Source: Butyribacter intestini (GTDB taxonomy: Bacteria > Bacillota > Clostridia > Lachnospirales > Lachnospiraceae). From it: 64,000 nt of DNA. Below the pieces are notes generated by a model. It ran no database searches, was not told where the DNA came from, and worked only from the letters and a program-made list of their open reading frames with translations. The stretch's first letter is position 1, and the number at the start of each line of letters is the position of its first letter. Shown piece by piece: positions 8,986-24,390 of this stretch. The DNA lies in NCBI GenBank assembly GCA_001414325.1, contig LLKB01000006.1, positions 186,001 through 250,000 on the forward strand, written 5' to 3'. Made by a program: the position numbers and the translations under genes.

Positions 8986-10047
8986 ATGTCAGGAGTAAAG
9001 AAAAATATTTTTAATGGTGCTTTTTTGTTGTTGGTGCTTCTTATCACGCTCTATTCGGTATTTCATGGAGAAAATCTTTCAGAGCTTCTAATTTATTTAA
9101 AGCAGGGAGATTTAAGATATTGGCTGCTCGGTGCGGTATTTGTTGTAGGATTTATCGAGTCAGAGTCGGTGATAATCTATTATATGATGAAAGTATTAGG
9201 CGAAAATGTAAAACTGACACATTGTTTTTTATATTCATTTGTCGGATTTTTCTTCTCGCTCATCACACCATCGGCTACGGGTGGCCAGCCGGCACAGCTT
9301 TACTTTATGAAAAAAGATAAACTGTCATTGCCTACATCGACAATGGTACTTCTTATAGTAACGATTACATATAAACTTGTACTTGTCGTGCTTGGTCTTG
9401 TTGTAATGATATTAAGACCTGAGCCTGTATGGAGACTTTTAAAACCGATATACGGCTGGTGTTATCTTGGAATTTTCTTGAATGTTGTGTGTGTTTTTGG
9501 TATGCTTATACTTGTATTTCATCCTACGCTCGCAAGTAATATTGTATTATTTTGCTTAAGATTGTTTGACAGGATATTTAAGAAAGATATGGAAAAAAAA
9601 TATGGCGGACGCCTGGAGAGAGCAATGGAAAAATACAGGTATGCGGCAGAATTTTTCTATAAAAATATAAAAGTTATAGTAAATGTATTTCTGATAACCT
9701 GCATGCAGAGATTTCTGCTGTTTGCAGTTACATATCTTGTATATAGGTCATTTTCACTCAACCTTGCCGGGGCAGGTGTGGTTATAACGCTCCAGGGAAT
9801 GATTTCTGTTGCAGTTGATATGCTTCCGTTACCGGGAGGACTTGGGATAAGCGAAAAATTATTTAAAGATATATTCTTGCAGATATGCACAAAAAAATAT
9901 ACGCTTCCTGTTATGATAGTCAGCAGGGGATTAAGTTTTTATGTTCAGCTTGGAATAAGTGCTGTAATGACGGTTGTTGCGTATCTTAGGATTGGGTCAG
10001 CAGATAAGATACTAAGCCTGAAACGGTTGTATTTTAGAAAGAAATGA
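8986..10047 (+). CDS. YbhN/AglD-type flippase-like integral membrane protein (second copy)
   Basis: A 353-residue paralogue of the protein at 4879 with the same two hallmarks, TPSATGGQPAQ and DMLPLPGGLGISE, and about eight spans. The ATG directly abuts the stop of the PAP2 gene and the 3' end overlaps the first possible ATG of the phosphatidylserine synthase gene, so these genes form one lipid operon. A role in moving a lipid or lipid-linked intermediate across the membrane is family-based inference. Confidence 0.85.
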   Translation: MSGVKKNIFNGAFLLLVLLITLYSVFHGENLSELLIYLKQGDLRYWLLGAVFVVGFIESESVIIYYMMKVLGENVKLTHCFLYSFVGFFFSLITPSATGGQPAQLYFMKKDKLSLPTSTMVLLIVTITYKLVLVVLGLVVMILRPEPVWRLLKPIYGWCYLGIFLNVVCVFGMLILVFHPTLASNIVLFCLRLFDRIFKKDMEKKYGGRLERAMEKYRYAAEFFYKNIKVIVNVFLITCMQRFLLFAVTYLVYRSFSLNLAGAGVVITLQGMISVAVDMLPLPGGLGISEKLFKDIFLQICTKKYTLPVMIVSRGLSFYVQLGISAVMTVVAYLRIGSADKILSLKRLYFRKK

Positions 10048-14707: not shown

Positions 14708-14824
14708 CACTATGATGCAGAACTTGTCAAACGAGGGGTGAGAGCAGAAAACATCCATCACTATGGTTTTGCGTTTAGAGGTAAAGAGGTGCTAATAGAC
14801 GGACGGTAGATGTTTTCGGAACAG

Positions 14825-14894
14825 TTCCCAAATCTGCAATAAAATTCCCAAATCTGCAATATCTATTGAAAAGATAAATGATAAATGGTATCTT
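14825..14894 (+). promoter_or_regulatory. Promoter of agrB with paired LytTR/VirR-box-like direct repeats
   Basis: Two identical 16-mers, TTCCCAAATCTGCAAT, lie at 14825-14840 and 14845-14860, a period of 20 bases or two helical turns. Five bases later comes TTGAAA (14866-14871), a 17-base spacer, and TATCTT (14889-14894). The repeat pattern CCCA..T.TGCA resembles the C. perfringens VirR box, the target of a LytTR regulator. The binding role is inferred. Confidence 0.75.
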
Positions 14895-14924
14895 CTGGTA
14901 AATCAAACAGGAGGTATTTGAGGG

Positions 14925-15503
14925 ATGATTGACAGATATATAAATCTTTTGATAGACAGAGGAATAATATGGCAGGGAGAAGAAGAAATATATAAGTATA
15001 AACTGACTTGTTTTCTTGAAAAAACATTTACGATAAGTATAATGATATTGATAAGTCTGATTTTCAGACAGACCATCAGTATTGTTATGTTTATCGTATC
15101 TTTTTTTTGGCTGAGAAGCAGAATGGGTGGCTTTCATCTTGATTCTTTTAAGGGGTGCTTTGTAGGCACCATAGGCACAGAGATAGTGCTTATACTTCTG
15201 ATAAAATATCGTGTCGTACCGCTCATTATATCGGAAATATTGTCTGCAATCGCGGCAGTTATCATCTTTATTTTAGGGGCATCAAACCATCCCAATATGA
15301 ATTATGACAAAGACGAATACCGTTTCAATAAAAAATATGCAAGACTTATAGTAATCGTAGAATTTTCGGCAATTCTCTTTTTTATCGGATTAGATGTATC
15401 AGAAATATATATCCAGGCAGTGGAATATTCGATTATACTTTCAGCGGTACTTCTTGTGATGGCATTTACAATGGGTCAGCATAAAAAAGTTTATTATTCA
15501 TAA
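14925..15503 (+). CDS. agrB: AgrB-type membrane peptidase/processing protein
   Basis: A 192-residue membrane protein with about five or six spans. AgrB enzymes cut the AgrD precursor and form the thiolactone autoinducer. The catalytic pair is visible as His71 and Cys78 within GGFHLDSFKGC, the seven-residue spacing of the S. aureus pair. The ATG follows AGGAGGTATTTGAGGG. The partner precursor gene is at 15781 and has its own promoter. Kinase and regulator genes lie 7 kb downstream. Confidence 0.9.
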   Translation: MIDRYINLLIDRGIIWQGEEEIYKYKLTCFLEKTFTISIMILISLIFRQTISIVMFIVSFFWLRSRMGGFHLDSFKGCFVGTIGTEIVLILLIKYRVVPLIISEILSAIAAVIIFILGASNHPNMNYDKDEYRFNKKYARLIVIVEFSAILFFIGLDVSEIYIQAVEYSIILSAVLLVMAFTMGQHKKVYYS

Positions 15504-15527
15504 AAAAATTGTAATTTCGACAAAAAA

Positions 15528-15597
15528 TTCCCAAATATGCAATAAAATTTCCAAATCTGCAATATCTATTGAAAAGTGAAAAATTAAGTGATATTTT
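15528..15597 (+). promoter_or_regulatory. Promoter of the agrD transcript with paired direct repeats
   Basis: TTCCCAAATATGCAAT (15528-15543) and TTTCCAAATCTGCAAT (15548-15563) repeat with the same 20-base period as before agrB. ATCTA, TTGAAA (15569-15574), a 17-base spacer and TATTTT (15592-15597) follow. The architecture duplicates the agrB promoter base for base through the -35 element, so both should answer to the same regulator. Confidence 0.75.
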
Positions 15598-15602
15598 TCT
15601 AT

Positions 15603-15751
15603 TGCAGCGAAGATGAAGAAATTAAAGAGAAATTAATTTTAGTATGTAATCGCTGCACTGTGGGTCATAAAAAATGATGTGCCGGCAGAGATTTTTGTGA
15701 TTTTGTGGGATGAAAACAGGAGAAAGACATTATCATAGATTTGTGACCCAC
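15603..15751 (+). other. Structured 5' leader of agrD (two large stem-loops)
   Basis: The predicted transcript starts near 15603. Stem 1 pairs TGCAGCGA (15603-15610) with TCGCTGCA (15650-15657). Stem 2 pairs GTGGGTCA (15660-15667) with TGACCCAC (15744-15751). Together they fill almost the whole leader up to the agrD ribosome binding site AAGGAGA (15764-15770). No open reading frame with a good start was seen in it. It may be a folded leader or a regulatory RNA. Confidence 0.55.
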
Positions 15752-15780
15752 CAATACAGAAGAAAGGAGAGTATAAGATT

Positions 15781-15921
15781 ATGGGAATTAAAGACAGTGC
15801 ATTAAAAATTTCTGGTTCTGTTCTTAAGAAGATGGTTGAAAAAGAACAGCAGAAGAAACCAGGATGTATGGGATTTTTGCATCAGCCTAAAAGACCGGCA
15901 ACACTTAAAAAGATAAAGTAA
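15781..15921 (+). CDS. agrD: AgrD-like cyclic lactone autoinducer peptide precursor (46 aa)
   Basis: A 46-codon gene with AAGGAGA ten bases before its ATG. The product has an amphipathic N-terminal leader (about residues 1-28, rich in Lys), then PGCMGFLHQPKRP, then a basic tail. The pattern Cys-x3-hydrophobic followed by QPK-x-P is typical of clostridial AgrD, so the signal is predicted as a five-residue thiolactone CMGFL with a short N-terminal tail. It follows agrB. The exact processing ends are not determinable from sequence. Confidence 0.88.
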   Translation: MGIKDSALKISGSVLKKMVEKEQQKKPGCMGFLHQPKRPATLKKIK

Positions 15922-15940
15922 TAGCTGCTAAAAATTAAAG

Positions 15941-15984
15941 AAGAACCTCTCACCTTTTACCTCTACCCAGGTGAGGGAGTTCTT
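15941..15984 (+). terminator. Hairpin between agrD and the secreted-protein gene
   Basis: AAGAAC plus CTCACCT (15941-15955) pair with AGGTGAG plus GTTCTT (15969-15984) around a small internal bulge. No T-run follows, so it is more likely a partial terminator or RNA-stability element that lets some transcription pass into the cargo genes. Confidence 0.45.
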
Positions 15985-16015
15985 GATGGGATGGGTAGAA
16001 GAAAAGGAGTATTCT

Positions 16016-16429
16016 ATGAATGATAGAATAAAGAAATTGGTTGCCAAAAGTACTATAATTGCATTGTGTGCATCAGTATTGGCGGGAAGTTCTGCATTTG
16101 CAAAAAATGGAGACATTAATAATATTAAGGTGAAATACGGTAATGGTGAAGAAGCAGCTAGTACATTGACAAAAAATGTTAGTAGACGAAATGGTTTTGT
16201 CAATTTGAAGGAGGATGCTAACAGTCGATGGATTACGGCAAGAATGAAAAAAGGAAAAAAAGTAAAAAAAAGTTATGTTGCCGGATCAGTAGTTTTACAG
16301 GAAGGTACGAGTGCTACATTTACCAATAGCGGAGTTGCTAATACTAATTACACATTATATATTACACGGACATATAAGGGGAATAATCCTGTTTCATATG
16401 TTAATGGGTATTGGAGAGCTGATTATTAA
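16016..16429 (+). CDS. Small secreted protein of the agr cassette
   Basis: The 137-residue product from ATG 16016 (AAAAGGAG six bases upstream) begins with a clear Sec signal peptide: basic start, hydrophobic core and SSAFA before Lys. The mature part is about 105 residues, basic, rich in Lys, Asn, Thr and Gly, and ends in SYVNGYWRADY; it has no cysteine. The profile (secreted, ending in a G-Y-W motif, next to an ABC transporter) recalls DUF2712 or lactococcin-972-like small proteins, but I cannot assign it. A GTG at 15971 would hide the signal peptide and lies in the hairpin, so it was rejected. Confidence 0.75.
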   Translation: MNDRIKKLVAKSTIIALCASVLAGSSAFAKNGDINNIKVKYGNGEEAASTLTKNVSRRNGFVNLKEDANSRWITARMKKGKKVKKSYVAGSVVLQEGTSATFTNSGVANTNYTLYITRTYKGNNPVSYVNGYWRADY

Positions 16430-16480
16430 AAGTGTTGTGATTTTTTAATTAGTTTTGTTAATTACAGACAGGGGGACAAG

Positions 16481-17305
16481 ATGAAAACGATTACTAAAGA
16501 AAGAATAAAAAATCCATTTTTATTTATTGCCGTTTTATCATTGATTACAGTTTTAATAGTTTCGTGGTTGTTTGGAAGTGAATTTCTAACGGTTATAACA
16601 TACAGCGAGGATTATATAAAAGCTAATGGTGGAATGTCAAAAAAAGAATATCTTAATATGATATTGCCGCAGATATTGTCATGGGAAAATTCATGGATGG
16701 GTGCTTTTACATATCTTGTAAATTTTTTTACCTTGTTCCCTTGTTTGGTTGTTTTGGAATTTTCAAAAGAACTAAAGGGATATTTTCCCCATGCAGTGAT
16801 TTATATGAAAAACGGAAATATGTCAATAAGAAAAGCGTGCATATTTTATGCAATACTTGGCGGAATTGTAGTATCGGTGTCATTGCTTCTTGGAGACATT
16901 ATGCTTGCTCCGTTTGCTAAGGCGGCACTTACGGATATTGGTGGGGCAGATGATTTTTTTCCTAAAAATTTTTATGTACTTCATCCTTTTTTTGTTTTTA
17001 ATACTCTTGCATGTACAATATATTTTTTAGCAGGTTTTGCTTTTGCCTTTATGGCATGTAGTGTTGCAATATGGAAGAATGATGCAGTTTTTATATTAGG
17101 CATTCCGTTTTTATTTTATCATTTGGAAAACTTTATTTCATCACAACTTGGTGGTTTTATGCCGTTATGGTCTGCTGATAGTATAGTTGCATTTAATACA
17201 CCACATAACATTTTAGAGCTTTCATTGCCGTTGCTGATAATAATAGGGATAAGTATTGTGATGATTGAGGTAAAAATACATTCCAGGAGAGGAGTGATTG
17301 AATAA
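16481..17305 (+). CDS. ABC transporter permease of the agr cassette
   Basis: A 274-residue membrane protein with about six spans (near residues 12-32, 78-98, 128-150, 172-200, 205-222 and 242-262). It overlaps the ATP-binding gene by one base, which marks the two as a transporter pair. GGGGG lies shortly before the ATG. It is ABC-2-like in size and layout. Export of, or immunity to, the secreted protein encoded just upstream is inferred from context only. Confidence 0.75.
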   Translation: MKTITKERIKNPFLFIAVLSLITVLIVSWLFGSEFLTVITYSEDYIKANGGMSKKEYLNMILPQILSWENSWMGAFTYLVNFFTLFPCLVVLEFSKELKGYFPHAVIYMKNGNMSIRKACIFYAILGGIVVSVSLLLGDIMLAPFAKAALTDIGGADDFFPKNFYVLHPFFVFNTLACTIYFLAGFAFAFMACSVAIWKNDAVFILGIPFLFYHLENFISSQLGGFMPLWSADSIVAFNTPHNILELSLPLLIIIGISIVMIEVKIHSRRGVIE

Positions 17306-17952
17306 TGTCAGGTTATATTGAATGTAAAAATTTGACTTTGCAGCTAAAAAATCAAAATAAAATTCTTGATAATATAAATATTTCTATGGAAAAAGGAAAA
17401 GTTTATGGATTTGTAGGGAGAAATGGCTGTGGAAAAACAATGCTTTTTAGGACTATATGCGGTTTTGTAAAGCCGGCAGCAGGTGAAATTATTGTAGACA
17501 ATTTGAGAATAGGAAAAGATATTGAATACATAAGAAATACAGGGGCGTCAATAGGAGAATCTGATTTTTTAAGACATTTGAGTGGATATGAAAATCTTAA
17601 ACTGCTTGCAGAGATAAATAATAAAATAACTGATGAGGAAATTTTATCTGTGTTAAAGAAAGTAAATCTTTTTGAGGAAAAGGATAAAAAATTTAAAAAG
17701 TATTCAGTTGGAATGAAACAAAAGTTACGAATAGCTCAGGCTATAATGGAAGAACCTGAGATATTGATATTGGATGAGCCGTTTAATGGGGTAGACAGGG
17801 AAAGTGTGTTAAAAATAAGAGAATATTTAAATGATTTAAAAAAGCAGAATAAAACAGTTTTGCTTGCAAGTCATATGAGTGAAGATTTGCAAGTATTGTG
17901 TGATCATATTTTTAAGATGGAATTAGGGAGAATTATAGATGAAAATATATAA
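17305..17952 (+). CDS. ABC transporter ATP-binding protein of the agr cassette
   Basis: The 215-residue ATPase has Walker A GRNGCGKTM, signature YSVGMKQKL, Walker B ILILDEPFNGVD and H-loop ASHMSED. The unusual Cys in Walker A does not replace a catalytic residue. Its start overlaps the permease stop and its end overlaps the following lipoprotein gene by 14 bases, so these genes are translationally coupled. Confidence 0.9.
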   Translation: MSGYIECKNLTLQLKNQNKILDNINISMEKGKVYGFVGRNGCGKTMLFRTICGFVKPAAGEIIVDNLRIGKDIEYIRNTGASIGESDFLRHLSGYENLKLLAEINNKITDEEILSVLKKVNLFEEKDKKFKKYSVGMKQKLRIAQAIMEEPEILILDEPFNGVDRESVLKIREYLNDLKKQNKTVLLASHMSEDLQVLCDHIFKMELGRIIDENI

Positions 17953-18976
17953 ATTGGTTCAGTATATTGGAATTTTATCATTTGGCATAATGTCTGTGAT
18001 AGTAACAGGGTGTTCTAAGACTGGAATAGGTGGGAATAAAGAACTTTTTGAAAAAATGGAAATGAAGAGTGTTGAAGATAATGAAAAACAAAATAATTCA
18101 TATGTATTTAAAGTTAAGTCAGAGAAAATAAAAGACAATTTGCTGTCATTAGGGTTCAATCTTGATGAGGAACAAATGGAAGAAGACATGAAAAATTGTT
18201 TTAGGTTGAAAGAAAAAGGTAATCTGTTTGTGATTGAGTTATTTGACGATATCTTGAATAAAAAAGCAAGTGGGTGCAAGGATATTGACATATATTATTC
18301 AGAGAAAATGATAAGAGATAATAAAAAAGAAAATAAAAGGTTGTTAAAGGCAATTTTTGAAGATATAGGGTATGAGTATAAAAGTATTGTTTTTGATAAA
18401 TTAAAAGAGATGTTTGAAAAAAAACAGAAAGACAAGAGTATAGATTTAAAATATAATAATAAAATACAGTTAGAGTATAGCTGGGAGGGAGATGAGATTA
18501 AATTAAGGATAGTTGCAAACGATTTTGCAAACGAACAGGAAAAAACATTTGATTTTAATCGGAATGATGTTTGGGATAAATTAAAAAGTGAAGAAATAGT
18601 AGTGTCAGAGATTAAATCAAAAGGTGAGTTGGATTTTGTGAAAAGGATGTTGACATTAAAAAACAAAGTAGCCACAGTAATAATAAGAGACAATCAAGAG
18701 AAAATTGGTAAAGAAACTAGCACAGAGGCAATATATATTCAAACAACATTAGTGAGCTTAAAAGATGATAATGGAGTTTTAGAAAACTGTAGGATTTTAG
18801 GTTGTATTTTAAATATGGTATGTAATAATATTTCTAATAATAAGATAGAAAAATACATTTTACAGCTAAAGGAGCTTAAAAACGACAATGCTTCAAAAGA
18901 AATAAAATTAGAAGATGCTTCAATGATTATGAATAATAATTCAGGAAAAATAGAAATAAGTATAATTCCAGAATAA
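17939..18976 (+). CDS. Predicted lipoprotein of the agr cassette
   Basis: The 345-residue protein starts with a lipoprotein signal peptide, hydrophobic core then VTGC at about residues 22-25, so Cys25 would be lipidated. The rest is very rich in Lys, Glu, Asp and Asn, largely helical and without a domain I recognise. It overlaps the ATPase gene by 14 bases. In bacteriocin-type loci a lipoprotein next to an ABC pair often protects the producer; that is a possibility here, not shown. Codons are more AT-rich than in the flanking chromosome. Confidence 0.72.
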   Translation: MKIYKLVQYIGILSFGIMSVIVTGCSKTGIGGNKELFEKMEMKSVEDNEKQNNSYVFKVKSEKIKDNLLSLGFNLDEEQMEEDMKNCFRLKEKGNLFVIELFDDILNKKASGCKDIDIYYSEKMIRDNKKENKRLLKAIFEDIGYEYKSIVFDKLKEMFEKKQKDKSIDLKYNNKIQLEYSWEGDEIKLRIVANDFANEQEKTFDFNRNDVWDKLKSEEIVVSEIKSKGELDFVKRMLTLKNKVATVIIRDNQEKIGKETSTEAIYIQTTLVSLKDDNGVLENCRILGCILNMVCNNISNNKIEKYILQLKELKNDNASKEIKLEDASMIMNNNSGKIEISIIPE

Positions 18977-19010
18977 AGATGACTTGGAAGGTAATGAAAC
19001 GGAGTTTGAT

Positions 19011-19742
19011 ATGAATAAAAAGATTACATATAAATATCTTATATTAAATTATATTGAGATGTTGTGTTGTGGTATTATCAGTGGGCTGGTATCATTAGTT
19101 GTGACCAATTCATATATAAATCAAAATATAGAAAATATACTGAAGAATAAATATTTTGACTATATTATAAATGTGATATTTTTTAATGATGGATATAAAG
19201 ATATTGCATATATGAATGGAAGTATAACTAAGTTATTGACAATATTGTTGTATTTTTATATACCGCCATTAATGTTTCTCTTATATAAATATTCAAGGGA
19301 AACAGAAACATATTATCCAATGATTATGGTAAGGCTTAATTCGAATAAGGAGGTAATAAAAAATATAAGAAAAAGACCATTTTTTTTATTTTCTGTGTAT
19401 GTTGTGGGATTTATGGTGTGTGTAGTATTAATAGGAAATAATATGTGTGAAATATCAATGAATAGTAGCATATTACATGATATTTTGATGTTTTCAATTT
19501 TAAGAATTGTAGTATTGACAGTATTTGGTAATATATTATTTTTAATCTATATAAAATATGGCACGGGAATATCATTTTTTATGGTAAATATATTATTTTT
19601 AATTATGTCAATGACAGATATAAATATAGAAAAAGTAAATATTTTGTTATATCATCCAGGGAGATGTTACATTGAAAATATAATTACATTATGTATTATA
19701 TTATTATTTATTAAAATTATGCAAAATAAGAGTATATTATAA
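19011..19742 (+). CDS. Multi-span membrane protein of the agr cassette
   Basis: From ATG 19011 (ACGGAG six bases upstream; a TTG at 18984 is the alternative) the protein has 243 residues and about six membrane spans. Its topology, with a long outside loop after the first span and a cytoplasmic basic loop near the middle, resembles that of the permease at 16481. It could be the second permease half of the same transporter. No specific family is recognised. It is strongly AT-rich. Confidence 0.65.
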   Translation: MNKKITYKYLILNYIEMLCCGIISGLVSLVVTNSYINQNIENILKNKYFDYIINVIFFNDGYKDIAYMNGSITKLLTILLYFYIPPLMFLLYKYSRETETYYPMIMVRLNSNKEVIKNIRKRPFFLFSVYVVGFMVCVVLIGNNMCEISMNSSILHDILMFSILRIVVLTVFGNILFLIYIKYGTGISFFMVNILFLIMSMTDINIEKVNILLYHPGRCYIENIITLCIILLFIKIMQNKSIL

Positions 19743-19818
19743 ACAAAATATGCTATATATGTTAAAAGCAAACAAATATTTTGGGGTAATTAAATTTATT
19801 TTAGGAGGATATAATTAC

Positions 19819-22202
19819 ATGAGATTTGATAATGAAGAATTATTTAAGGAATTAGTAAAAAAATATGGAATGAATTTGTTTGTAGGAGCAGGGTTTTCTG
19901 TTTATGCTTATAATGAGGATAAAGAAAGTTTACCGTTAGGTGAAGAAATAAACAAAAAATTGATAAAGCTTTTTTCGTTAGATAACGGAAGAAAATTTAA
20001 TTTGAGTAAAACATGCCAAAAGATAAAAATAAATAATTCAGATATGTTGGAAAAAAATTAAAGGATATATATACAGTTGAAAATTTTGACAAGGAATATT
20101 TCAAAATAACAAGACTTCCGATAAAGAATATTATAACTGTAAATATAGATAATTTGTTGGAAAAAATATATGATTCTCAAGAATCTTCAGTAAACATATC
20201 GGATACGGCAATTTATGGTTCATTGGAGAAAGAGAAAGTTGTTAGTTTATATAAACTGCATGGTTCAGTTACTTATCCTGTTGGTAGTAGAATGTCATTT
20301 ACAGAAACAGAATTGACAGATTTATTTATTAGAGATAATAAATTGTTTGAAACAGTTTCATTTAAGCTTTCTACAGCACCTACTATATTTTGGGGAACCA
20401 AGTTAAGTGATAACAACATTATGCAAATAATATGTAATAGTGAAGCTTATGCAAAATCATCGATGCAAAGATGGTTAGTTGTTTATCCTGACGAAAAAAA
20501 TAAAGAATTTATTGAAGATTACATAGATTTGGGGTTTAATATTATAGAAGCTGATACTAAAGAATTGATTAATTATCTTGGAGAGCAGAGTTTTGCAAGG
20601 GTCGACGAGGGGGATAAAAATATATATAAAGAGTATAGGGACAAGTTCCCAACAAGTTTTATCTGCAATGAGTTAAAAAAGTCGGGTGTAAAACGTCCGG
20701 TTGTGGATTTTTTTGCGGGTGCAGAACCTATTATCTCAGATATAGTATCTAGTAATGTTTCTAGAACTTCATATTATACTGTTTTGTTAGGTACAATATT
20801 AAAGGGGAATATTACTTTAATAACTGGAATACCAGGCTGCGGAAAGTCTACATTGTTAATGCAATTAGCCTTTTCGAAGGAACTCAGTGGTAGAAAATTT
20901 TGGTTTAACAATATTATAGAGCAAGAAGCCGTAAAACTTGTGAATCTTGTAAGAGATGATGAAAACGTAACTGTTTTTATTGACAATTTGTATAATAATG
21001 TAGATGCACTTAAGGTATTAAGAAAAAATGAAAATATTAAACTAGTATTAGCGGAAAGAGCATTAAATTATGAATATGTCAAGCGTTTTTTAAATATTTC
21101 ATCAGATAGAATTGTGGACATTAGTGAACTGAATAAAAATGATGTACAAGTGATATGCAAGTCTATGAATCGTTCAAGTTCAGATGCATTTGATTTAATG
21201 GCATCAAATGAAAATATATCATTATTAGAAATTGTATTTTATACCGCAACATCAACACAAATTCAGGAGAGAATAAAAAGTTATGTGAGAGATTTAAAGG
21301 AATATAAGGATAATAGCTTAAAAATTGATTTACTGGAATTATTTGTATTGGTTAATTATACAAGTTATTGTGGAATACCATGTTCAATGGATATGATGTA
21401 TTTTTATTTTAGTGATTGTATTGAGTCATATAAAGACATATTATATGCATTGAAAAAGATGAACCGAATTATAGTAGAAAGTACGGATTATGACAGTATT
21501 GGAAAAAACCAAGACTACAAAGAAATGAGAAGTAAATTGTTTGCAGAAAAATCATTTAATGTATTGGAGGCAAGTGTAATAGCAAAAGTTATGAATAAGT
21601 TTTTGGATAAAGTTGGAATTCATATAATATATAGGTATGATATTTTTAAACGTAGAGCTTATGACGCTGATTTAACTAAAAAAGCATTTTGCCTAGAAGA
21701 TGGAATTGAATTTTATGAAAAAATATTAAAAAACAATAAATCTCCATATATAAGACATCAATATGCTTTGTTTTTACAGAGAAAAAAAGAGTATGATTTA
21801 GCATGGTCGCAGATAGACCAGGCATATACTGAAAGTAAAAAGAAAATTTTTTCAATTGCAAATACACATGCGATTATTATGTTTGAAAGAAATATTATAA
21901 GTGAAGCAAGTGATCAAAGGGAATTGGATATGTTAAAGAAAACGATAGAAAAATCGTTTTTAACATTAGAATTTTGCATTACTCAAGATGTTAGAGTAAA
22001 TTATCATATTTTAACTTATGCTAGAAATGCTATAAGGTATTATGAGAAATATGATTGGGATAATTATGCTGAACAGTATGTTGAAAGTGCATTGAAACAA
22101 TTGGATATATTGTTAAATTCTGAAGAATATATTTTTCATGGAACATTAAGAGAATTGAAGAATTTACAAAAAAAATTAGTGATGATTAAGAAAAGTATGT
22201 GA
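19819..22202 (+). pseudogene. SIR2-STAND NTPase (antiphage type) interrupted by a frameshift
   Basis: Two frames join into one protein of about 794 residues. The N-terminal SIR2 domain shows FVGAGFS (NAD site), TVNIDNLLE and KLHGS (catalytic His). A STAND P-loop follows with GIPGCGKST and Walker B VTVFIDN, and then a long helical, TPR-like C-terminus. SIR2-STAND proteins (Avs5/DSR-like) deplete NAD+ on phage sensing. The start at 19819 has AGGAGG ten bases upstream. The frame breaks at the A7 run 20051-20057: as written it reads LEKN-stop, while one extra A or a -1 slip on A-AAA-AAT restores LEKKLKDIYTVENFD. It may be inactive, phase-variable, programmed, or a sequencing error. Confidence 0.8.
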
Positions 22203-22209
22203 TTTTTAT

Positions 22210-22249
22210 AAATGGCATTTATTATTTTTTATAGATAAGTGCCATTTTT
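22210..22249 (+). terminator. Intrinsic terminator after the SIR2-STAND gene
   Basis: AAATGGCA (22210-22217) pairs with TGCCATTT (22240-22247), the stem can extend through AT pairs inside, and TTTTTG ends the site. It closes the cargo transcript before the two-component genes. Confidence 0.7.
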
Positions 22250-22254
22250 GCATT

Positions 22255-22317
22255 TCAGTCCATTATTTTGACCTCTCAGTCAGAATTTTGTTCATAATCT
22301 CTATTTTGTGTTATAGT
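22255..22317 (+). promoter_or_regulatory. Promoter region of the agrA/agrC-like pair with 21-base-spaced repeats
   Basis: TCAGTC occurs at 22255-22260 and 22276-22281 in similar context (TCAGTC...ATTTTG), exactly 21 bases apart, the spacing of LytTR half sites. A possible promoter follows: TTGTTC (22288-22293), 18-base spacer, TATAGT (22312-22317). Autoregulation is inferred. Confidence 0.5.
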
Positions 22318-22348
22318 TATTGTATAAATCACAAAGGAGGAAACATAT

Positions 22349-23092
22349 TTGGGGACTGATATTATTAAAATAGCTATATGTGATGATGAAAAGGTTATTA
22401 TAGACAGGCTGCGGGGATATATCGAGAAGCATATAAAAAAAGCAGGATTTCCATATAAGATAGACATTTATCAGTCGGGTGAGGAGTTTGCAGCTTTAGA
22501 AAAAGCTATGAGCGGGTATGATATTGTTTTTATGGATGTGAATATGAAAGAGATGGACGGGATAAAAACGGCTGAAGATCTAAGAAAATACAGTGACAGG
22601 ACATTTCTTGTATTTGTGACCGGTTTTATTGAGTATTCACTGGCAGGATATAAGGTTGATGCCATAAGATATATAATAAAAGATGAGACAACTATAGAAT
22701 CTGACATTATCGAGGCTTTGAATGTTATTTTAGAAAAAATGGGAAGAAGCGTCCATGAGCTTGTATATGATTTTGTTGAACAGAGAGAAAAAAAGGTAAA
22801 TATTGACAACATAGTCTATATTGAAAATTTTTTACATAGGGCGTGTTTTCATTTAGTTGAGAATGACAGCGAAAAAGAATATACAGTTTATAAAAAGCTG
22901 AATGATATAGAGCAGGAGATTAAAGAGGAGAAGTTTGTCAGGATTCACCAGAGTTTTATCGTTAATATGGATTATGTGTGTGATGTAAAGAGATATTATG
23001 CAAAGCTTGTAAATGGAAGGGAACTTCCGGTATCAAAACAGAAGTATAAATCCGTTGCCAGTGAATATATAAAGCAGAGAGGAAAATTATAA
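22349..23092 (+). CDS. LytTR-family response regulator (AgrA/VirR-like)
   Basis: A 247-residue regulator starting at TTG with AAAGGAGG eight bases upstream. The receiver domain has Asp12-Asp13 (ICDDEKV) and phospho-acceptor Asp63 in FMDVNM. A LytTR DNA-binding domain occupies about residues 140-245 (VYIENFLHRACFH, FVRIHQSFIVNMDYV, LPVSKQKYKSV). It overlaps the kinase gene by one base (TAATG). With AgrB and AgrD at 14.9-15.9 kb it completes a quorum-sensing circuit, and the paired repeats before agrB and agrD are its likely targets. Confidence 0.9.
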   Translation: MGTDIIKIAICDDEKVIIDRLRGYIEKHIKKAGFPYKIDIYQSGEEFAALEKAMSGYDIVFMDVNMKEMDGIKTAEDLRKYSDRTFLVFVTGFIEYSLAGYKVDAIRYIIKDETTIESDIIEALNVILEKMGRSVHELVYDFVEQREKKVNIDNIVYIENFLHRACFHLVENDSEKEYTVYKKLNDIEQEIKEEKFVRIHQSFIVNMDYVCDVKRYYAKLVNGRELPVSKQKYKSVASEYIKQRGKL

Positions 23093-24390
23093 TGAATGTT
23101 TTACAGAGTTATCTGATTATACTTATTGAAATGTCATGCTTTTTGATATTCAGTTCGTCGTTTTATAAACCCGAGTTTAGATTTAAAAAATGGACGAGAG
23201 TTGTCTATGTATTTATTATGGCAACGCTGGTTCTTATTGTAAGTGATGTTTTTGGACAAAGTCCTATACTAAAACAGATATTAAATATAGTCATTCTTGT
23301 AACCGTGAGTATGATTATGGAAAAGAAAAAGTTTGAAAGGGCAGTTATAGTATCAGTTTTATTTATATTCTTGCTGCTTGCTGCTGATATAATAACAATA
23401 TTGATAGATAGCAATGTATTTAAAATTGATACAAATGGCTCATATAGTATAAATGTGTTTGTAATACTGTTGAGCAAGTCGGTATTGTTATTGCTTATAC
23501 TTATCTTCAAAAAATGTATGAGCAGAAGATGGCTTGAAAGTGTCGAGACAACAGATGTATTCTTTTTGATGATATTTCCCATCATATCAATAGCCTGTAT
23601 TTTATTTACACTTAAAATAGAAATCGCAGTAAAGTTTCAAAATGAAATGCAATTTGTCTGGATAGTTATGGTAAGCCTTATAGCAATGAACATACTTGTG
23701 ATATTTTTTATGGATGACCTTGCTGAAAAAGCAAAGTTAAAGCGGGAAAAGCTTATGTTTGAGATGGATGTAAAGAAACAGCAGGAAATGTATGAGTCGC
23801 TCGAAGAGAATGTAAAGCAGCAGAGAAGTATATCACATGAATATAGAAATAACCTTTTATATATTGGGGGACTGCTTCAGAAAAAAGAGTATGATGAACT
23901 TTCGGATTATCTGAAAAAGTTGAGCGATGGAAATATGGCAGGGGAAGATGTCATAGATACAAATAATTCGGTGGTAAATATTATATTGAACACAAAATAT
24001 TACGAGGCAAAGAGGGCAGGAGCTTCATTCATATGTAAAATAAATGACCTGGCAGGAATTACGATGATGGAGGGGGAGCTTATTTTAGTTTTGTCAAATC
24101 TTTTAAATAATGCCATCGAGGCAGTTGAAAAATGCAATGGCAGAAAGATGATAAAGTTAAAGACCGTTATTGAAGATGAAAAATTTATTGTATCCGTGAA
24201 AAATACTTTTGACGGAAATCTTAGAAAAGACGGGGAGAGATTTCTTTCGACAAAAAGAGAAAATAATGAGCTTCATGGTATAGGTATAAAAAATGTTATA
24301 AAAGTAGTTGAAAAATATGACGGATTTTATCTGTTTGAGCCGGAGGGTGATGAGTTTAGTGCGATTGTTATAATTCCGATGGATTTTTAG
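23092..24390 (+). CDS. AgrC-like sensor histidine kinase (GHKL family)
   Basis: The 432-residue kinase has six to seven N-terminal spans (about residues 1-205), a coiled linker, the phospho-acceptor His249 in SISHEYRNNLLYIGG, and an ATPase domain with N-box LSNLLNNAIEAVEKC and G-box HGIGIKNVIKVVEKY. This is the layout of AgrC/VirS peptide-pheromone receptors. It is translationally coupled to the response regulator. The signal is probably the thiolactone encoded at 15781. Confidence 0.9.
   Translation: MNVLQSYLIILIEMSCFLIFSSSFYKPEFRFKKWTRVVYVFIMATLVLIVSDVFGQSPILKQILNIVILVTVSMIMEKKKFERAVIVSVLFIFLLLAADIITILIDSNVFKIDTNGSYSINVFVILLSKSVLLLLILIFKKCMSRRWLESVETTDVFFLMIFPIISIACILFTLKIEIAVKFQNEMQFVWIVMVSLIAMNILVIFFMDDLAEKAKLKREKLMFEMDVKKQQEMYESLEENVKQQRSISHEYRNNLLYIGGLLQKKEYDELSDYLKKLSDGNMAGEDVIDTNNSVVNIILNTKYYEAKRAGASFICKINDLAGITMMEGELILVLSNLLNNAIEAVEKCNGRKMIKLKTVIEDEKFIVSVKNTFDGNLRKDGERFLSTKRENNELHGIGIKNVIKVVEKYDGFYLFEPEGDEFSAIVIIPMDF

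Follow-up and report, generated by a model that had tools for sequence, protein, structure and literature searches.

A split agr-type module in Butyribacter intestini that probably controls a secreted-protein/ABC cassette, with a receptor promoter resembling that of a second agr locus

A stretch of 64,000 nucleotides of the Butyribacter intestini genome (contig LLKB01000006.1, C6:186001-250000; this whole stretch is called the window) was found to carry an agr-type quorum-sensing module in which the signal genes are separated from the receptor genes by a cassette for a secreted protein and an ATP-binding cassette (ABC) pair. All genes lie on the plus strand in the order agrB, agrD, secreted 137-aa protein, ABC pair, lipoprotein, membrane protein, SIR2-STAND gene, LytTR response regulator and AgrC-like sensor kinase; the genes from the secreted protein to the membrane protein are referred to as the cargo. 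This agrees in gene set and order with an initial annotation made from the letters alone, which also placed the protease pair of AgrB correctly at His71 and Cys78 (counted in the translation). We propose, with a probability of about 0.6, that the module runs the cassette through regulator boxes private to it, that its receptor genes stand under a promoter of the type found at another agr locus of the same genome (L009), and that the cassette has a bacteriocin-like role. The gene layout, the boxes, their uniqueness and conservation, the likeness of the promoters and an ABC relic in a cargo-less sister species were read directly from the sequence. The genome (3.61 Mb, 12 contigs) contains six AgrB matches in total.

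Regulatory boxes of the module

Upstream of agrB a 16-bp unit, TTCCCAAATCTGCAAT, is repeated in tandem with a period of 20 bp, and a slightly varied copy of this box precedes agrD within the 277-bp spacer between the two genes (Table 1). The double unit was searched in the whole 3.6-Mb genome with a pattern made from these two sites, allowing up to 3 mismatches; two sites were found, and the reversed control gave 0. Promoter-like sequences follow 3' of both boxes, such matches being about as frequent in shuffled sequence. Boxes and promoter were conserved in the congener G403, with local alignment scores of 41 and 47 against maxima of 14 and 19 in 300 simple shuffles.

The spacing of such repeats was surveyed in 46 stretches, comprising the window, five loci of the same genome and 40 relatives. 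The relatives were taken from the 41 best AgrC matches outside the window genome in 397 sampled genomes of the family; one fragment with two stops was excluded, and each of the remaining 40 was represented by up to 20 kb around the AgrC match. In non-coding DNA near agr genes, direct-repeat pairs had a period of 20 in 33 cases and of 21 in 21 cases, compared with 0 to 9 for every other period between 12 and 33. For coding DNA the numbers were 8 at period 20 and 33 at period 21, and the second figure resembles those at other multiples of three. The pairs counted are not independent events, as the second window box was included twice and the loci L049 and L050 are near copies. The commonest repeat core was TTTTCTGCAA; the core in the window, AATCTGCAAT, is a variant of it. 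Over the whole stretches, pairs of the core TTCTGCAA numbered 68 at 20 bp and 54 at 21 bp versus 27 and 27 at 19 and 22 bp, with 5 to 11 for the reversed core. In 15 of the 40 relatives a pair of TTCTGCAA or TTCGTGCA preceded agrB by at most 90 bp, and in 10 such a pair preceded the regulator by at most 250 bp; AgrB was detected in 23 of the 40 with a profile of five own AgrB proteins, which may miss distant ones. Because pairs with a period of 20 to 21 recur near the agr genes of relatives, often before agrB, the window boxes appear to be of the kind that this AgrA subfamily normally targets and are predicted regulator sites. For Staphylococcus aureus, AgrA is established to bind two direct repeats upstream of its promoters (PMC4227749).

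Box pairs of the TTCTGCAA type were also seen before open reading frames (ORFs) with signal-peptide-like starts in L055, L047 and L068; this AgrA subfamily may thus drive secreted proteins more widely.

Cassettes beside agr genes

A like-built cassette was found behind agrD at locus L010 of the same genome. There, agrB, regulator and kinase lie on one strand, and agrD, an RNA-like element (see below), a secreted protein, permease, ATPase, 228-aa protein and membrane protein are arranged divergently. At L011, also in this genome, the order is agrB, regulator, kinase, lipoprotein, permease and ATPase. The ATPases of the window, L010 and L011 are 41-46% identical (window versus L010, 41%); the other cargo proteins of the three loci were not alike in BLASTP. 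Among the relatives, related cassettes adjoin a kinase of the same subfamily as that of the window in L051 (regulator, kinase, box, lipoprotein, two permeases, ATPase; no agrB detected) and in L065 (regulator, kinase, agrB, 748-aa ORF, secreted protein, permeases, ATPase). The initial annotation had proposed that population density controls the cargo. Evidence for this comes from boxes that stand only before agrB and before agrD with the cargo, by their conservation in G403 and by the cassette behind agrD in L010, and the predicted agr control of the cargo is well supported. The annotation had also named findings that would speak against its reading, such as agr genes contiguous with the cargo elsewhere. 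In part these turned up: L010 has its agr genes contiguous with a similar cargo, and the agr genes of G403 stand without one, though the ABC relic there indicates a loss.

The G403 genome, 63% complete, was reached through a covariance-model match of the element behind agrD (stretch L154). The chromosomal site is that of the window, and the gene order is glycosyltransferase, a whole AAA-ATPase_like/PDDEXK_9 gene, box, agrB, box, agrD, element, regulator, kinase, DUF4364, radical-SAM and malic enzyme, the last three being the same genes as in the window. The flanking DUF4364 protein is 92% identical between the two (for the agr proteins see Table 1). AgrD is 70% identical, with leader and tail kept and the ring residues differing (CMGFL versus CGAVL); the signal core of the window AgrD is probably CMGFL. 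An ABC-ATPase relic lies between the element and the regulator in G403, where BLASTN aligned 124 columns at 75% (E 8e-15) and tblastn gave E 5e-9 when run on the gap and 6e-7 when run on the contig; the start of the secreted gene is possibly left as well (a short weak match, E 2.4). Because of the relic between agrD and the regulator, the cargo is most likely ancestral and was lost in G403 instead of gained in the window. An insertion of the cargo into a contiguous agr operon was considered and rejected on account of the same relic. Of the AAA-ATPase_like gene the window, in turn, most likely kept only the tail. Among the 28 genus genomes, 27 had a DUF4364 match; in fetched stretches of at most 1.5 kb per side, some cut by contig ends, the window genome and G403 were the only ones with agr genes next to it, and no glycosyltransferase was found beside it in other genus genomes.

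The receptor promoter and locus L009

The regulator-kinase operon lacks the module's own box and is preceded by a tandem repeat of another type, TTTCAGTCC..TTTTGACCTCTCAGTC. When the genome was searched with a pattern built on this site and that before the L009 agrD, three sites were obtained (reversed control 0): the window receptor operon, the L009 agrD and, with 3 mismatches, the L009 agrB-regulator-kinase genes. The window receptor promoter and the L009 agrD promoter aligned with a score of 50 over 76 columns, from the box through the -10 region, compared with a maximum of 19 in 300 simple shuffles. The G403 receptor promoter scored 20 with that of the window and 18 with the L009 agrD promoter (shuffled maximum 17 for each), mainly from the -10 region. 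L010 and L011 carry yet other repeat types. The module had been described as self-contained, a view not supported given a receptor operon carrying the box type of another agr locus. In the simplest reading, moderately supported by these patterns, each agr regulator would have its own box, and the window receptor operon would have come under L009 control. The L009 system would have to fire before the window system can listen.

A further regulator-kinase pair, lacking its own agrB, was observed near the L009 agr locus (L009 10150-12227). It is preceded by a 333-aa ORF whose product looks like a secreted protein anchored in the membrane at its C-terminus.

An RNA-like element behind agrD

The pattern CTCTACCC..GTGAG..GGGTRGAAG occurs at three sites in the genome, each just 3' of an agrD (window, L009 and L010), with 0 for the control; a first pattern had found nothing, and this result came from a loosened one. 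With the G403 copy, the loop core CTCTACCC is identical in 4 of 4 copies, and the hairpin arms vary somewhat yet pair. Covariation in the hairpin was slight and not above shuffles. The fold z-score was -0.67 for the window, no better than shuffles, and -2.16 and -2.53 for the other two copies in the genome. Pairing of the loop with the downstream GGGTRGA is possible in three copies and with another stretch in G403, a pseudoknot that was not significant per copy (460, 286, 89 and 162 of 2000 shuffles were as good).

An Rfam scan over the element in L009, L010, L011 and L003, the last covering the window copy, returned no family up to E 1. The exact pattern matched genome contigs once, in Kineosporia, which was taken as chance; this pattern would miss copies like that of G403. 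A covariance model detected only its three source copies below E 0.04 in the 46 stretches. In the 28 genus genomes it found one further convincing match, that in G403 (E 3e-7), besides a match in G192 (E 0.001), situated where a contig ends and without an agr gene in the 1.6 kb covered, and a second one in G403 (E 0.009), with no agr gene seen beside it. The element possibly adds a common control layer over the secreted-protein genes of three agr loci, with a possible pseudoknot reaching the ribosome-binding region.

Family relations and likely role of the cargo

A profile of ten permeases, partly cut, from DUF2712 (PF10916) cassettes was searched against 22 targets. It matched permeases of L065 (3.7e-42), L010 (2e-19) and L051 (3.9e-10) and, with high bias, the window permease (1.3e-5); the next target, a non-permease, was at 0.099 and the best control at 0.35. 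Judging from this modest match, the window permease probably belongs to the same family. The lipoprotein had no match in a set of second genes of DUF2712 cassettes. Membership of the secreted protein in DUF2712 was not supported: hhalign gave P 0.029 over 20 columns (reversed control 0.15), and the profile gave E 0.0075 and 5.3 bits, little ahead of the 0.015-0.059 obtained for five further small secreted proteins. The sole likeness is its C-terminus, NGYWRADY, which recalls the GxWSPDSV or GYWDEET ends of DUF2712 proteins. The secreted protein of L065 is a true member (E 4e-13).

DUF2712 proteins were found in 13 of the 397 family genomes, including the window genome at another place. Within about 1.5 kb on each side of 14 DUF2712 loci, an AgrB-like ORF was seen in 1, and a kinase, regulator or such ATPase in none. 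The cassette elsewhere in the window genome is L189 (C5:899873-900217), and the AgrB-like ORF (L185 2554-3258, E 1.5e-9) neighbours a DUF2712 protein in a different genus of this family.

As a LanFEG-type self-protection ABC transporter the ATPase falls short, its best NCBIfam match, TIGR03740, reaching 163.3 bits against a cut-off of 309.75. The secreted 137-aa protein is present in 1 of the 397 family genomes, the window genome itself, and AlphaFold2 on its single sequence gave a predicted local distance difference test (pLDDT) value of 35.5, which is unusable. In the 28 genus genomes the window permease matched itself and one weak stretch of 61 residues. A permease-pattern search of genome contigs, sensitive to close relatives only, gave no confirmed relative; kinase matches in viral contigs, permease matches in phages and whole-block matches in plasmids were likewise not found. 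The kinase hit 27 plasmid records, none over more than 80% of the query, and among the matches listed (8) all were below 32% identity. The likeliest reading, weakly supported, is that the cargo may make a bacteriocin-like secreted protein with self-protection, gated by cell density.

Gene layout, the split and the SIR2-STAND gene

The features of the block are listed in Table 1. To the left it extends beyond the genes to box 1 and, just before it, the tail relic of the AAA-ATPase_like/PDDEXK_9 gene. Profile matches confirmed AgrB, AgrD, the ATPase, the SIR2_2/nSTAND5 domains, the LytTR regulator and the GHKL domain of the kinase. With 49.6 bits against a cut-off of 400 for the NCBIfam AgrA equivalog, the regulator is AgrA-like and not a staphylococcal AgrA.

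Table 1. Features of the agr module and its cargo; positions refer to the window unless a locus is named.
Feature	Position	Strand	Remarks
C-terminal relic of AAA-ATPase_like/PDDEXK_9 gene (whole in congener G403)	14711..14809	+	frame reading ..HYDAELVKRGVRAENIHHYGFAFRGKEVLIDGR*; BLASTN window 14711-15603 vs L154 8348-9214, 71.7%
Regulator-type box 1, upstream of agrB	14825..14860	+	tandem TTCCCAAATCTGCAAT, period 20; then promoter-like TTGAAA-17-TATCTT; conserved in G403
agrB	14925..15503	+	PF04647 E 5.5e-29; 66% identity to G403 AgrB
Regulator-type box 2, upstream of agrD and cargo	15528..15563	+	box-1 repeat with two changes; then promoter-like TTGAAA-17-TATTTT; conserved in G403
agrD	15781..15921	+	NCBIfam quorum_AgrD TIGR04223, 24.5 bits vs cut-off 19
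RNA-like element	15940..16005	+	hairpin, loop core CTCTACCC; possible pseudoknot with GGGTAGA just 5' of the ribosome-binding region of the secreted-protein gene
Copies of the element behind agrD	window 15940-16005; L009 8663-8729; L010 9098-9163; L154 (G403) 9463-9530		
Secreted 137-aa protein	16016..16429	+	C-terminus NGYWRADY; no Pfam family over cut-off
ABC permease	16481..17305	+	no Pfam over cut-off; DUF2712-cassette permease profile E 1.3e-5, 15.4 bits, bias 12
ABC ATPase	17305..17952	+	PF00005; best NCBIfam TIGR03740 (lantibiotic protection), below cut-off; relic in G403
Lipoprotein	17939..18976	+	lipobox-like TGC; no Pfam family over cut-off
Membrane protein	18984..19742	+	about six helices (simple hydropathy count); no Pfam family over cut-off
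SIR2-STAND gene, broken	19819..22202	+	halves 19819-20061 and 20154-22202 in different frames; SIR2_2/nSTAND5 domains
Hairpin, possible end of cargo operon	22210..22247	+	absent from terminator-scan calls
L009-type box, upstream of regulator-kinase operon	22253..22282	+	tandem repeat and promoter alignment
LytTR response regulator, AgrA-like	22349..23092	+	PF00072 and PF04397; 63% identity to G403 regulator
AgrC-like sensor kinase	23092..24390	+	GHKL domain PF14501 E 7.1e-22; 59.6% identity to G403 AgrC

The distance from agrB to the regulator in the window is 6,846 bp. Regulator and kinase were no more than 500 bp apart in 38 of the 40 relatives, and all 23 detected agrB genes lay within 500 bp of the regulator or kinase, which supports the earlier view that the split arrangement is atypical. 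The usual trait of agr loci (not a strict definition), four contiguous genes with the receptor co-regulated with the signal, is absent here, given this gap and a receptor promoter without the module's own box.

The initial annotation had described agr genes split by about 6 kb of cargo that included a SIR2-STAND gene; the split was confirmed, and the SIR2-STAND gene proved to be broken. Its start and the rest are in different frames, the frame of the rest being open from at least 20055, so that the single intact protein with SIR2 and STAND domains expected of an anti-phage system is not encoded as assembled. The break may be an assembly slip at an A-run or real. Relatives of either half were searched for on the stretches L009, L010, L011, L051, L065 and L154, and none were found.

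Proposed mechanism and alternatives

We propose that AgrB would trim AgrD to a cyclic peptide with a CMGFL core, that AgrC would sense this peptide, and that the LytTR regulator would bind the two private tandem-repeat boxes. Box 1 would drive agrB, and box 2 a single predicted operon of agrD, the RNA hairpin element, the secreted protein, the ABC pair, the lipoprotein and the membrane protein; as both are in the box-2 operon, signal and cargo would rise together. The cargo would make a bacteriocin-like secreted protein, with the ABC pair and the lipoprotein protecting the producer. The receptor operon would be a separate unit whose promoter carries the box of the L009 system, and the SIR2-STAND gene would be a broken passenger. 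Regulator binding to the boxes, the operon structure, the cascade and its direction and the antibacterial role are inferred in this scheme.

Several observations weigh against this proposal. A similar ATPase (at least 200 bits) was present on the fetched stretch in 2 of the 40 relative loci only (L051 and L065), so cargo and agr are not generally linked. In G403 no cargo accompanies the agr genes, which there either serve another use or are decaying. The possible terminator behind the SIR2-STAND gene was not picked up by the terminator scan, and the cargo beyond the ATPase and, modestly, the permease showed no significant likeness to anything searched. For the receptor promoter, the box before the L009 agrB deviates from the pattern by 3 bases, and an L009-type box was looked for before the G403 regulator and not seen; the cascade, if real, is therefore young or was lost in G403.

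The presence of agr without cargo in G403, and of most relative loci without the cassette, would suit a reading in which agr genes and cargo are chance neighbours, the regulator controlling the agr genes and the cargo having a promoter of its own. We consider this quite improbable, as box 2 stands before agrD on the cargo strand with no further box of that type in the genome, a like-ordered cassette recurs behind agrD in L010 with its own type of repeat pair, and the ABC relic lies at the same place in G403. Somewhat less improbable, and still unlikely in our judgment, is that the role of the ABC pair is to export or clear the agr peptide, or to tune signalling, instead of protecting against a bacteriocin. 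In favour of this, the cassette is tied to agrD, and the family and profile searches found no antibacterial likeness for the secreted protein; however, related DUF2712-type cassettes mostly lie without agr nearby, as counted above, and in AgrB systems AgrB itself processes and exports the peptide. A defence island under quorum control, with an NAD-depleting SIR2-STAND protein at its end, suggested in part by the initial annotation, would fit the SIR2_2 and nSTAND5 domains and the position of the gene on the same strand, 76 bp after the membrane-protein gene. We regard it as very improbable: the gene is broken, the stretches listed above, among them other agr loci with such an exporter (L010, L011, L051, L065), hold no relative of it, and PADLOC matches were weak (best 24.6 bits).

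The strongest competitor concerns the receptor promoter, where the L009-like box might be a non-functional leftover without any cascade. The regulators of the window and L009 loci are just 26.5% identical, and the box was not seen in G403, both in favour of a leftover. On the other side, the likeness covers the box and the -10 region with a score far above the shuffled maximum, and such boxes number three in the whole genome. We hold the leftover to be doubtful, if a serious possibility. The wider picture, that box-insulated agr systems coexist, two of them wired in series through a captured L009-type promoter, with a shared RNA control behind agrD in three loci, is tentative, and we rate it a little short of even odds.

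To our knowledge, the question of what keeps multiple agr systems within a cell apart, or lets them communicate, is still open. If the series wiring is true, the second signal would be heard only after the first, with L009 acting on the window receptor operon. A genome with six AgrB matches supplies testable DNA for this, namely box types restricted to two or three sites, a foreign box before a receptor operon and an RNA element behind agrD, and it makes agr insulation and hierarchy approachable by reporter and gel-shift experiments.

Comparison with known systems

Plantaricin-type class II bacteriocin systems combine an AgrC-like kinase and a LytTR regulator with repeat boxes before operons for secreted peptides, immunity and transport; their pheromone is a linear peptide, whereas an AgrB-made cyclic peptide is expected in the window. 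With the S. aureus-type agr the module shares all four parts, the direct-repeat pairs before the signal promoters and the divergence of the peptide core between sister species with leader and tail kept. It differs in that the receptor genes are split from the signal genes by the cargo, agrB and agrD each stand behind a box of their own, and the receptor promoter has the box of another agr locus.

In PMC10602386 the Clostridioides difficile pair RgaS-RgaR is described as activating agrB1D1 without sensing AgrD1. This RgaS-RgaR/Agr1 system likewise has a LytTR regulator, direct-repeat sites before agrB1D1 and a few other promoters, and uncoupled wiring of signal and receptor. There, however, an orphan pair activates agrB1D1, while in B. 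intestini the receptor genes of one complete agr locus appear to be fed by a second locus that is itself complete. In Clostridium acetobutylicum a dedicated effector gene, CA_C0082, likewise lies beside the agr operon and is controlled by it (PMC10301443); the effector is a LanM-like protein, in contrast to the secreted protein with ABC exporter of the window. DUF2712 cassettes, which include a lipoprotein or a one-helix protein, share with the window a small secreted protein in first place and, behind it, a permease probably of one family. They differ in that the secreted protein and lipoprotein of the window are unmatched and that 13 of the 14 DUF2712 loci have no agr gene within about 1.5 kb. 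Among the matches listed in the literature search, no title dealt with this arrangement or with the RNA element behind agrD, and no paper was returned for DUF2712.

Two further observations concern the surroundings of agr loci. AAA-ATPase_like/PDDEXK_9 genes lie directly upstream of agrB in L154 (6653-8446) and L011 (10718-12427), in addition to the tail relic in the window (14711-14809), and this gene is a possible recombination partner of agr loci. The agr locus is nearly identical between L049 and L050 (99.55% over 14,990 columns), from genomes placed in different genera (g95 and g18), which suggests a recent transfer or a mixed assembly.

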